36,553 nucleotides of DNA from an uncultured Anaerolineae bacterium (GTDB lineage: Bacteria; Chloroflexota; Anaerolineae; Anaerolineales; Villigracilaceae). The stretch spans positions 1 to 36,553 of the forward strand of contig CAINXK010000517.1 in the NCBI GenBank assembly GCA_903854805.1, in the 5' to 3' direction. Positions 22,237-24,737 of the stretch are shown here, one piece after another. Numbering within the stretch: position 1 is the first letter of the stretch; each line of letters begins with the position of its first letter. Made by a program: the position numbers and the translations under genes. The notes beneath the pieces were generated by a model. It worked only from the letters and a program-made list of their open reading frames with translations. It had not been told where the DNA came from and did no database searches.

Positions 22237-23106
22237 CTAAATCAGCACTATTCGACAAAGATGGCCGCTGCTGCAACCTACCAGCAGCACAGCACCAGGC
22301 GCCAGGCCGTATGGCGCTGCCAACTGGCTTGGAAGATCATCTTCCGGTAACCCAAGCACCCGATCCCAGGTCTGACCAGCATCGCGGGAAATTATCAGCA
22401 CATCCTGCATAGCAGCAATGATCATATTTCCATCCATAATAAGCGCGTTAATGCTTTCCTGAGTTTTATCATTTCCCAGCTGCTGCCAGGACTGAGAGGC
22501 ATCCAGACTAGCGTAAAGACCACTGCCTTCGGTGCCCACCAAGAGCAGACCCGGAGCACTGGCCAGGCAAAGAATGGGGCTGTGACCGCAGGGTAGTGTA
22601 GTTTCGATCCAGGCCCGCCCAGCGTTTTGACTGACAAACAGGCCGGTACCGGTACCTGCGTATAGAGTATCCCCAGGGGCAATCACCAGGCTCAGCACCT
22701 GAAAATCCAGTAACCCAAAATTCCAGGAAGCCCAATTTGCGCCACCATCTATCGAACGATATACACCATCTTCAAGGCTTGCAGCAAACAGTATACGATC
22801 ATGCTCGAAATCTGGGGAGACCGCCATGGACGTAATAAAAGGAGCGGGTGTAGGCAGCTGTGCCGATGCCCAAACGTTCCCGCCATCGAGAGAACGCAGG
22901 ATGCCGCCAGGAACGGCAGCAAAAACGATTTGATCGGCAGGAAACTGTGGCGAAAACACAACAGCACTGGCCGGTATGACCAAGCCCGAGTCCAATCGAA
23001 CCGGGCTCCAGGTTCGACCAGCATCAAGACTGCGCAATAATCCAGTTGAACTGGCAGAAAAAGCAGTATCACCACAGGCAGCAAGTGCATAAACGATGTC
23101 TGTCAT
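22237..23106 (-). CDS. Asp-box (BNR) beta-propeller protein, six repeats
   Basis: A 289-residue protein made almost entirely of six Asp-box repeats: RSLDAGRTW, RSLDGGNVW, RSIDGGANW, VSQNAGRAW, ASLDASQSW and SRDAGQTW, spaced about 40-45 residues apart, each preceded by a G-[LVI]-[LVY] strand. This predicts a single six-bladed propeller similar to sortilin or YCF48-like proteins. There is no signal peptide, so it should be cytoplasmic, unusual since many BNR proteins are secreted. Its ligand is unknown. The start ATG 23106 overlaps the TGA of the chaperonin gene by one base (TGATG), with GGAG just upstream, so its translation is probably coupled to the chaperonin. Confidence 0.82.
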   Translation of the reverse strand: MTDIVYALAACGDTAFSASSTGLLRSLDAGRTWSPVRLDSGLVIPASAVVFSPQFPADQIVFAAVPGGILRSLDGGNVWASAQLPTPAPFITSMAVSPDFEHDRILFAASLEDGVYRSIDGGANWASWNFGLLDFQVLSLVIAPGDTLYAGTGTGLFVSQNAGRAWIETTLPCGHSPILCLASAPGLLLVGTEGSGLYASLDASQSWQQLGNDKTQESINALIMDGNMIIAAMQDVLIISRDAGQTWDRVLGLPEDDLPSQLAAPYGLAPGAVLLVGCSSGHLCRIVLI

Positions 23107-24737
23107 CAAGGCTCCACGGAAAATTGGGGACTGGCATTGTGAACAAGCACATCAACGGTCAGCGCGAGCGCCGCACCACGCACAGCAGCATTCAACGCGG
23201 CTTTACTAACCCCAGCTGAATCCAAAACGCCCACCGCCAACATGTCAGCAGGTTGACCGGTGCGCACATCGAAACCCAGTCCGGGCTCCAGGCCGTGAAG
23301 CTCATACCCTGCGTTTGCAGCGATCACCAGAGCCGGCTGCCTGAGGGCTTTTTGCAGGATCCTTCGAGCTGCAACCCGAGCATCATTCTGATCAGGCCTA
23401 AAACTTAGGATATCAAGGCAAGCCAGGTAAGCAGCCCCGCCGCCAGGCAAGATACCATCGCGCAAAGCTGCACGGATTACCAGGCTGGTGTGTTCAGCCA
23501 ATTCGCGGCGGTGCTTTTGCTCGCTCTCAGTAGCACCCCCCACCAACAGACGCGCCGCACCACCATGCAGACGCCCAATTCTGGCTTGCAATTTCCGGCG
23601 AGTATCGGTGCTATCGGAGGCGTTCAGGGCAGCTCGCAGGTTGGCAATGTGAGCACGCAGCACCAATGGATCGCCCTTCCCGCCCACCAGGCTAAAATAT
23701 TCTTGATCTGCCCACAAGCGGCGCACAAGACCAAAATCTTCAGGACGAATGTTATCAAGACTCTCACCAGTGGCACTCAAGATGGCACGCCCACCTGCCA
23801 GGGTAACGATATCCTGCAGATTGGCAAACTGGTCTGTCAACCCGGTCCCCGGGGTTTTAATACCAACGACTGTCAGATTCCCGGAACGGGTGGCACTGAG
23901 CATCAACGCGACTGTATCTTCTGAAAATTTTCGAGCCAGGATAGCCAGGGACTTATATCCAGCATTCAGAACAGCACGCAGCACCGGTAAAAGAGCCTGC
24001 GGGTCGTTAATCTCAATATCGGTACTAAGAATGGCACTATTTTCAAGTCTGACAGACATCTGATGCGAGTCATTTAGCAGACTGCGGCTGGCCAGGCCGC
24101 CTTCCCATAGCGCACCTTCAATGTATTCACATTCAGATTGTTGACTACGCGCGTTTTCAATCTCAACGTGACCATCCATGCCAATGACGAAAAATAACTC
24201 GGCAAGCAGCGCGGCGATCTCAGGATCGGGGCAGGCAGACATGGCAAAATGAGACAAGGCCAGCTGTCCGTGAATGGGGCTGGCCAAACCGGATAGATTA
24301 TCCAGCAGGCCAGGCAAAAGATCTTCAAGAGCCTCGCGCAGCAGCATGGCATTACCACCAGCAATGATGTACTTAATGCCTTCATCATATATTGTTCTAA
24401 GCATCACAGCCGCCGAAGCAGTACCATCACCCACTTCTTCGCGTAAGCGCCAAAGCACATGCCGGACAAACATTGCCCCCATATCCGCATCTCGATCACT
24501 AAGCGCCACAGTTCGGCGAGCAATCAGGCCGCCATCATCGAGCAGTTCGGGTGGATCACTGGCATGCGAACGCGCAACCGCAACCAGACGCGGCATCGGA
24601 CCCAGGGTTGGGCGAATGGCATCCACCATGCGGGCAATTCCCTGCTGGAATTGCTGGTGAGCGCGAGGCTGAAAAATCACACCTGGCGTCACATCTCTAA
24701 ATGGAGTTTTGGGCTTTTTTTTGGGGTCAACTCTCAT
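23106..24737 (-). CDS. Divergent GroEL-like (Cpn60) chaperonin with altered active site
   Basis: A 543-residue protein collinear with group I chaperonins. Equatorial landmarks are present: TLGP (44-47), DDGG (67-70; Asp68 matches GroEL Asp52), GDGT (103-106; Asp104 matches Asp87), LPGGG and GVLDSAGVSKAALNAA near the C-terminus (Asp506 matches Asp495). By hand alignment anchored on the following Arg and Gly, the catalytic Asp398 of GroEL is His416 here. In the apical domain, Tyr199, Tyr203 and Phe204 of the substrate groove are replaced by Leu215, Ser219 and Leu220. The usual Gly-Gly-Met tail is absent and no groES is nearby. It may be a slow or inactive ATPase with a specialised client; this is inference. 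It overlaps lacZ by 11 bp and the propeller gene by one base. Confidence 0.85.
   Translation of the reverse strand: MRVDPKKKPKTPFRDVTPGVIFQPRAHQQFQQGIARMVDAIRPTLGPMPRLVAVARSHASDPPELLDDGGLIARRTVALSDRDADMGAMFVRHVLWRLREEVGDGTASAAVMLRTIYDEGIKYIIAGGNAMLLREALEDLLPGLLDNLSGLASPIHGQLALSHFAMSACPDPEIAALLAELFFVIGMDGHVEIENARSQQSECEYIEGALWEGGLASRSLLNDSHQMSVRLENSAILSTDIEINDPQALLPVLRAVLNAGYKSLAILARKFSEDTVALMLSATRSGNLTVVGIKTPGTGLTDQFANLQDIVTLAGGRAILSATGESLDNIRPEDFGLVRRLWADQEYFSLVGGKGDPLVLRAHIANLRAALNASDSTDTRRKLQARIGRLHGGAARLLVGGATESEQKHRRELAEHTSLVIRAALRDGILPGGGAAYLACLDILSFRPDQNDARVAARRILQKALRQPALVIAANAGYELHGLEPGLGFDVRTGQPADMLAVGVLDSAGVSKAALNAAVRGAALALTVDVLVHNASPQFSVEP

Follow-up and report, generated by a model that had tools for sequence, protein, structure and literature searches.

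A Chloroflexota clade of GroEL paralogues that has largely lost Asp398 and is recurrently encoded beside a beta-propeller

The window analysed here, meaning the whole 36,553-nucleotide stretch of Anaerolineae DNA, encodes a GroEL-like protein that, judged by its sequence, belongs to a clade of group I chaperonin paralogues in Chloroflexota. Nearly all members of this clade have replaced Asp398, the catalytic aspartate of GroEL, and their genes are recurrently followed by a gene for a beta-propeller. We put at roughly one in two the probability that they are hydrolysis-impaired chaperonins dedicated to the co-encoded propeller, as client or partner. A first-pass annotation, made from the letters of this DNA, had proposed a chaperonin with a special client; the gene order suggests the downstream propeller, which that annotation overlooked, for this role. 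The features concerned are the following.

22237..23106, minus strand: Asp-box (YCF48-like) beta-propeller, 289 aa from ATG, adjoining the 3' end of the chaperonin gene
23106..24737, minus strand: GroEL-like chaperonin paralogue, 543 aa, an open reading frame with His416 at the Asp398 position
23490..23492, minus strand: codon of His416, at the site of the catalytic Asp398 of GroEL; it reads His
24534..24539, minus strand: codons of Asp67-Asp68, aligned with the Lys51-Asp52 positions of GroEL; in relatives, Asp51 accompanies Arg398
24727..28092, minus strand: GH2 beta-galactosidase, the next gene upstream, sharing 11 bases with the start of the chaperonin gene

The coding strand of 23106..24737 is the minus strand, as the plus-strand frame contains several stops. 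The product matched Pfam PF00118 (Cpn60_TCP1) over residues 39-533 with 91.6 bits (cut-off 34.3), that is, over a full-length Cpn60 domain, which bears out its reported collinearity with GroEL. It remained below the cut-off of all six NCBIfam GroEL models (235-325 bits) and did not reach that of the GroEL equivalog TIGR02348 (305.4 bits against 582.1). The best solved relatives found with HMMER were group I chaperonins (E down to 5e-75), as were all 50 listed Foldseek matches of the predicted model (pLDDT 89.8). Profiles of group II chaperonins (CCT/thermosome), whose cut-offs are 400 bits or higher, gave no more than 23 bits, and the NCBIfam exception models for chlamydial GroEL2 and GroEL3 gave 69.9 and 110.8 bits, with cut-offs of 600. 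The model had TM scores of 0.76-0.82 to GroES-bound and about 0.6 to apo GroEL, a difference from which, with no canonical control folded, we draw no conclusion. A tblastn search of the window with both chaperonins (E<=1e-3) returned only the gene itself and no second GroEL, and one with E. coli GroES (E<=1) had no match, in keeping with the earlier statement that groES is missing. A viral origin was considered and discarded, the viral scan having yielded one relative only, at 26% identity.

His416 falls opposite Asp398, anchored by the Arg and the Gly-Gly-Gly that follow, in two independent sets of alignments: HMMER, run pairwise against solved chaperonins, and MAFFT, run with E. coli GroEL. 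Neither put an Asp there, so the substitution first read from the sequence stands and an alignment artefact can be ruled out. Like E. coli GroEL, to which it is about 30% identical, the protein has a full-length collinear Cpn60 fold and keeps the glycines of the nucleotide loops. The other aspartates listed in the first-pass annotation were recovered by MAFFT as well (Asp52, Asp87 and Asp495 correspond to Asp68, Asp104 and Asp506), and so were the apical groove replacements: Tyr199 to Leu215, Tyr203 to Ser219, Phe204 to Leu220 and, in the PGFG loop, Phe281 to Thr298. Unlike E. coli GroEL, it lacks Asp398 and an adjoining groES, its groove is replaced, and the same alignment revealed pocket changes that had not been listed (Thr50 to Leu, Lys51 to Asp, Thr90 to Ala, Thr91 to Ser, Ile150 to Ser and Ser151 to Ala).

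These features were followed through the relatives of the protein. A protein search, in which the 7999 candidates sharing most words were scored, found 838 relatives; the best 120 of the 838 were used. Where the sources named them, the names were Anaerolineae, Anaerolineales, Chloroflexi/Chloroflexota or Herpetosiphonaceae, often with just 'chaperonin GroEL' as a description. Together with 42 sequences from genomes, and leaving out rows under 500 aa, they make up 162 paralogues. Asp398 is present in 0 of these 162 and in 31 of 31 canonical rows, E. coli included. The residue at this position is Arg in 144, His in six, Glu in four, Gln in three, Tyr in two and Gly and Lys in one each, with one row not printed. 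This count omits two sequences that scored as neither kind, L092, which has Asp398, and L098, a very long-branch Cpn60 (G002:C36) with Arg. When these two and 18 deeper rows are added, Asp398 is kept in 2 of 182 rows (L092 and L208); at 90% redundancy (167 rows), Arg398 occurs in 135 and Asp398 in 2. Absence of the Gly-Gly-Met tail, also reported at first, is real, and all 182 paralogues lack a Gly-Met-rich tail, but this was dropped as a distinguishing mark because such a tail occurs in just 16 of the 31 canonical rows.

Asp87 and Asp495 are each retained throughout (162/162 paralogues; 167/167 non-redundant rows). The Asp52 equivalent is variable, being kept in 111 of the 167. Changes from Asp to Glu are also found. 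Position 51 is Asp in 160 of the 162 paralogues and in 150 of the 167 non-redundant rows, His in 28 of the 31 canonical rows and Lys in E. coli. In another count, Asp51 accompanied Arg398 in 147 of 150 rows. This association suggests a charge swap across the pocket; shared descent alone could also yield it. In the groove, Tyr203 and Phe204 are replaced in nearly all paralogues, while positions 234 and 237 are still mostly hydrophobic.

The retained aspartates leave room for the alternative that the enzyme is a normal or near-normal ATPase in which His416 (Arg, Gln or Glu elsewhere) or Asp67/Asp68 has taken over catalysis: Asp87 and Asp495 are invariant, Asp52 is mostly kept and an additional Asp51 is nearly always available. 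We consider this unlikely. Arg398, the residue in 135 of 167 rows, would not be expected to act as a general base, and Asp52 and Asp398 are both changed in 56 of the 167 (one of the 56 being a gap). In two studies of GroEL, the D398A change alone lowers the ATPase to 2-3% (PMC3326522, PMC3813556). By analogy with that mutant, the paralogues would be weak ATPases.

In a tree of 84 rows, the 65 paralogues grouped together with support 100, and a long stem separated them from the 19 canonical ones. The trees were quick ones (LG+G4 and a mixture model), with deep forks partly unresolved. L092 and L208, with Asp398, and L207, with Glu, branch early, in no settled order. A group of 12 rows carries Gln, Glu, Ala, Asn, His and one Arg at this site, and a group of 50 rows mostly Arg; the four-row His group of the window is nested among Arg rows. 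On this topology, His398 is a late change in the small sub-clade of the window and Arg the usual residue of the clade. The fewest changes between Asp and not-Asp on the tree is two, with Asp assumed, not read, in the outgroup rows L006, L017, L047 and L052.

Roughly 44 of 298 genomes from the class of one related genome, G007, have a chaperonin match at E<=1e-85, a count based on at most four scored candidates per genome. Among the contig-scan matches listed for A1, 80 loci were 29-33% identical, the level of canonical GroEL, and may be of either kind. With TIGR02348 (cut-off 582.1), no paralogue from a set of 30 genomes exceeds 408.4 bits. A canonical GroEL above the family cut-off is present in 23 of these 30 genomes; the other seven have fragments or none, for which incomplete assemblies may account. 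A Cpn10 gene is present in 27 of the 30. In 48 genomes labelled as other than Chloroflexota, the best match to profile A3 had 454.5 bits, on a scale where canonical GroELs score 438-455 and known paralogues mostly 468 or more. The deep member L098 scores just 370, below the canonical range, and deep clade members outside Chloroflexota are accordingly possible.

The relatives evolve under purifying selection: dN/dS was about 0.05-0.17 in six chaperonin pairs and about 0.08-0.15 in three propeller pairs, values that are rough, as dS exceeds 1 in several pairs. A pseudogene, at the level of the family, is ruled out by the chaperonin values. The earlier idea of a hydrolysis-impaired, specialised chaperonin thus fits the nearly clade-wide loss of Asp398, the selection on the relatives and the canonical GroEL that most of the paralogue-bearing genomes tested also have; its emphasis on His did not hold up, Arg being the usual residue.

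Downstream, the ATG of the propeller gene overlaps the chaperonin stop codon as TGATG, an arrangement from which we propose that the two window genes are translationally coupled (the model and the alignment of the propeller used a 290-aa version starting from a TTG at 23109). The protein exceeds the Pfam cut-offs for Sortilin-Vps10, BNR and PSII_BNR and contains six Asp-boxes. Its predicted model (pLDDT 94.4) has seven blades by our reading of the strands. Its likeness to YCF48 lies in the fold, the Asp-box repeats and the PSII_BNR match: YCF48 structures were the best solved Foldseek matches (TM about 0.73-0.78). It differs from YCF48 in sequence, with 15-18% identity in the top rows and 32 bits against a cut-off of 326 for the NCBIfam Ycf48 model NF010237. 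No signal peptide was seen by eye or with a crude hydrophobicity count, so a cytoplasmic location is likely.

The recurrence of this pair was assessed in 40 loci taken from chaperonin matches before any propeller search. In 28 of them (40 loci in 31 genomes), as in the window, the next gene downstream encodes a propeller homologue on the same strand, with a gap of -46 to +26. The other 12 lack an intact adjoining propeller: L198 has a broken one about 1 kb further along, and 11 have none in the available stretch, which for L176 is under 1 kb of contig. The chaperonins of L198 and L199 are near-identical and these loci are not independent. Of an additional 18 loci, at least 15 of which were chosen for a nearby propeller, 16 have one; its frame spans 284-675 aa, and in 13 of the 16 it falls between 628 and 675. 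The deeper chaperonins of L200-L208 and L211-L214 have Gln, Glu, Ala, Asn, His or Asp at position 398, and the propellers downstream of them measure 628-675 aa and contain up to 12 Asp-boxes, perhaps as two seven-bladed rings in one chain. Loci of canonical GroEL had GroES in 22 of 23 cases and a propeller in 0 of 23, within flanks (about 1.5 kb) shorter than those of the paralogues. GroES was found at 1 of the 58 paralogue loci, L205, where a canonical copy is close by.

Paired members include L208, which keeps Asp398, and L207, which has Glu; loss of hydrolysis is therefore not a condition of pairing, and, since L208 has both the Asp and a propeller, the pairing may predate the loss of Asp398. 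Separations also occur. The propellers L218 and L219 have no chaperonin beside them, and genomes G237 and G202 have a paralogue and no propeller match at E 1e-45. Together with the 12 loci lacking an intact propeller, the stand-alone propellers imply that neither partner strictly needs the other in cis. The chaperonins of L160 and L162 (genomes G217 and G237), 77% identical to each other, have no adjoining propeller; the gene after L162 encodes a 1256-aa protein that matches PMT_2, PA14 and NHL, and the propeller of G217 (L218) lies on a different contig.

We also searched from the propeller side, with a profile of 23 propellers, all from beside chaperonins, at E 1e-45, a threshold that admits other long Asp-box proteins too. 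It matched 74 of the 298 genomes, among them 28 of the 30 paralogue-bearing ones. Of the 34 best matches, 30 have a chaperonin match next to them, one lies at a contig end and three stand apart (G217:C93, G099:C11 and G002:C2); a separate look at the first two of these three likewise showed no neighbouring chaperonin. However, 22 of these 30 are rows of the profile itself and five more were already in the 40 loci. The seven new matches divide into three that adjoin a chaperonin, three that do not and one at a contig end. As support for the pairing this reverse test was discarded as largely circular; the three unpaired matches indicate that this propeller family also occurs away from the chaperonin.

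The chaperonin and propeller genes travel and diverge as a pair, to a degree that canonical GroEL does not account for. Among 30 pairs with short propellers, the pairwise distances of the two partners correlate with r 0.84 (0 of 2000 permutations). When canonical GroEL served as control, in 17 genomes, r is 0.79 for chaperonin and propeller, 0.33 for chaperonin and canonical GroEL and 0.18 for propeller and canonical GroEL; the partial correlation after removing canonical GroEL is again 0.79 (0 of 2000 permutations). Co-divergence is no proof of contact, because neighbouring genes co-diverge without touching.

Upstream of the pair the neighbourhood is more varied. In the window, a minus-strand run at 22237-36457, possibly one transcription unit, ends with the GH2 beta-galactosidase, the chaperonin and the propeller; the preceding genes encode a solute-binding protein, two ABC permeases, a GcvP-A/GcvP-B pair, an NAD-kinase-like protein and an SDR. 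A glycine dehydrogenase pair is unexpected in such a run. On the plus strand, at 17225-20511, a Fur-like regulator gene is followed by genes for CbiM/ECF-type transporters (by eye from the translations). The beta-galactosidase had no matching counterpart among the neighbours in the 40 relative loci. In 18 of 41 loci, ABC permease genes lie on the same strand no more than 6 kb upstream; those of the window are more distant. An upstream sugar operon was accordingly set aside as the main conserved partner in favour of the propeller, and a loose link of the pair to sugar use is possible. The transport and sugar genes of the window, and the permeases at the 18 loci, would suit a chaperonin that is a holdase or an accessory of sugar metabolism, functionally unlinked to the propeller and merely co-travelling with it in carbohydrate operons. 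This seems very unlikely to us, given that the propeller stays while the upstream genes vary, that the pair recurs in deeper branches and that the partial distance correlation is high.

For the reading we favour, a chaperonin dedicated to its propeller, the following course may be proposed. With Asp87, Asp495 and the glycine loops kept, the clade probably binds nucleotide; hydrolysis would be very slow, given the altered Asp398 site (mostly Arg, His here) along with the changes at positions 50, 51 and 90. The chaperonin would remain ATP-loaded for long and so hold its client long. In the reports on GroEL D398A, ATP binding is normal, encapsulation and folding persist, and loss of Asp398 slows the release of unfolded protein (PMC3326522, PMC3813556); this analogy is the basis for expecting ATP binding and a long hold. 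The mutant and the paralogues share the changed residue, and they differ in that the latter are a natural clade, mostly with Arg398 and with further pocket changes. A ring, if the paralogues assemble into one, would capture the propeller family by physical contact and then fold or hold it, by analogy with CCT, which binds seven-bladed WD40 propellers (PMC8544692). On this analogy the co-encoded propeller would be the most economical client.

Gene order, as read from the sequences, would fit equally well a propeller that acts as a co-chaperonin or adaptor and takes the GroES position on the apical ring, serving there as cap or client-recruiting subunit, with the chaperonin acting on other proteins. 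We regard this as possible, though doubtful. GroES is nearly absent from the paralogue loci, where a propeller often occupies the adjoining place, the groove residues Tyr203 and Phe204 are replaced, and a seven-bladed propeller with YCF48 as its best solved match would face a ring that is presumably seven-fold; beside the deeper chaperonins the propellers are mostly about twice as long. Seven blades, however, is a very common number for beta-propellers, positions 234 and 237, which contact GroES, have mostly stayed hydrophobic, and the Cpn10 gene found in 27 of 30 genomes could serve both chaperonins. The replaced groove and the missing groES do not reveal which protein binds. A more specific version, in which GroES has been swapped for the propeller, is a long shot: one pseudo-sevenfold protein would cap or plug a heptameric ring that is latched by the charge-swapped Asp51-Arg398 pair, not driven by hydrolysis, making a cage that is slow or locked with ATP and has its partner built in.

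CCT/TRiC, a eukaryotic chaperonin, is hetero-oligomeric, belongs to group II and has an active ATPase; the window protein is of group I, and the shared link to seven-bladed propellers is proposed as an analogy only. We know of no propeller partner for chlamydial GroEL2 and GroEL3, from which the window protein also differs in its low scores with their models. It resembles them as a divergent GroEL paralogue sited apart from the copy linked to a co-chaperonin (PMC5904260, PMC1892554). A review of atypical type I chaperonins places multiple copies predominantly in five phyla, Chloroflexota not among them (PMC5904260). A literature search covering mostly open-access papers found no report of a chaperonin-propeller pair.

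Asp398 is central to ATP hydrolysis in GroEL, and here a natural clade has dispensed with it while under purifying selection, in genomes that mostly have a canonical GroEL as well. The clade thus asks directly whether a dedicated chaperonin needs fast hydrolysis. Its recurrent two-gene unit makes it simple to examine in bacteria how chaperonins and seven-bladed propellers are linked, a connection known from CCT, and may represent an alternative to GroES.
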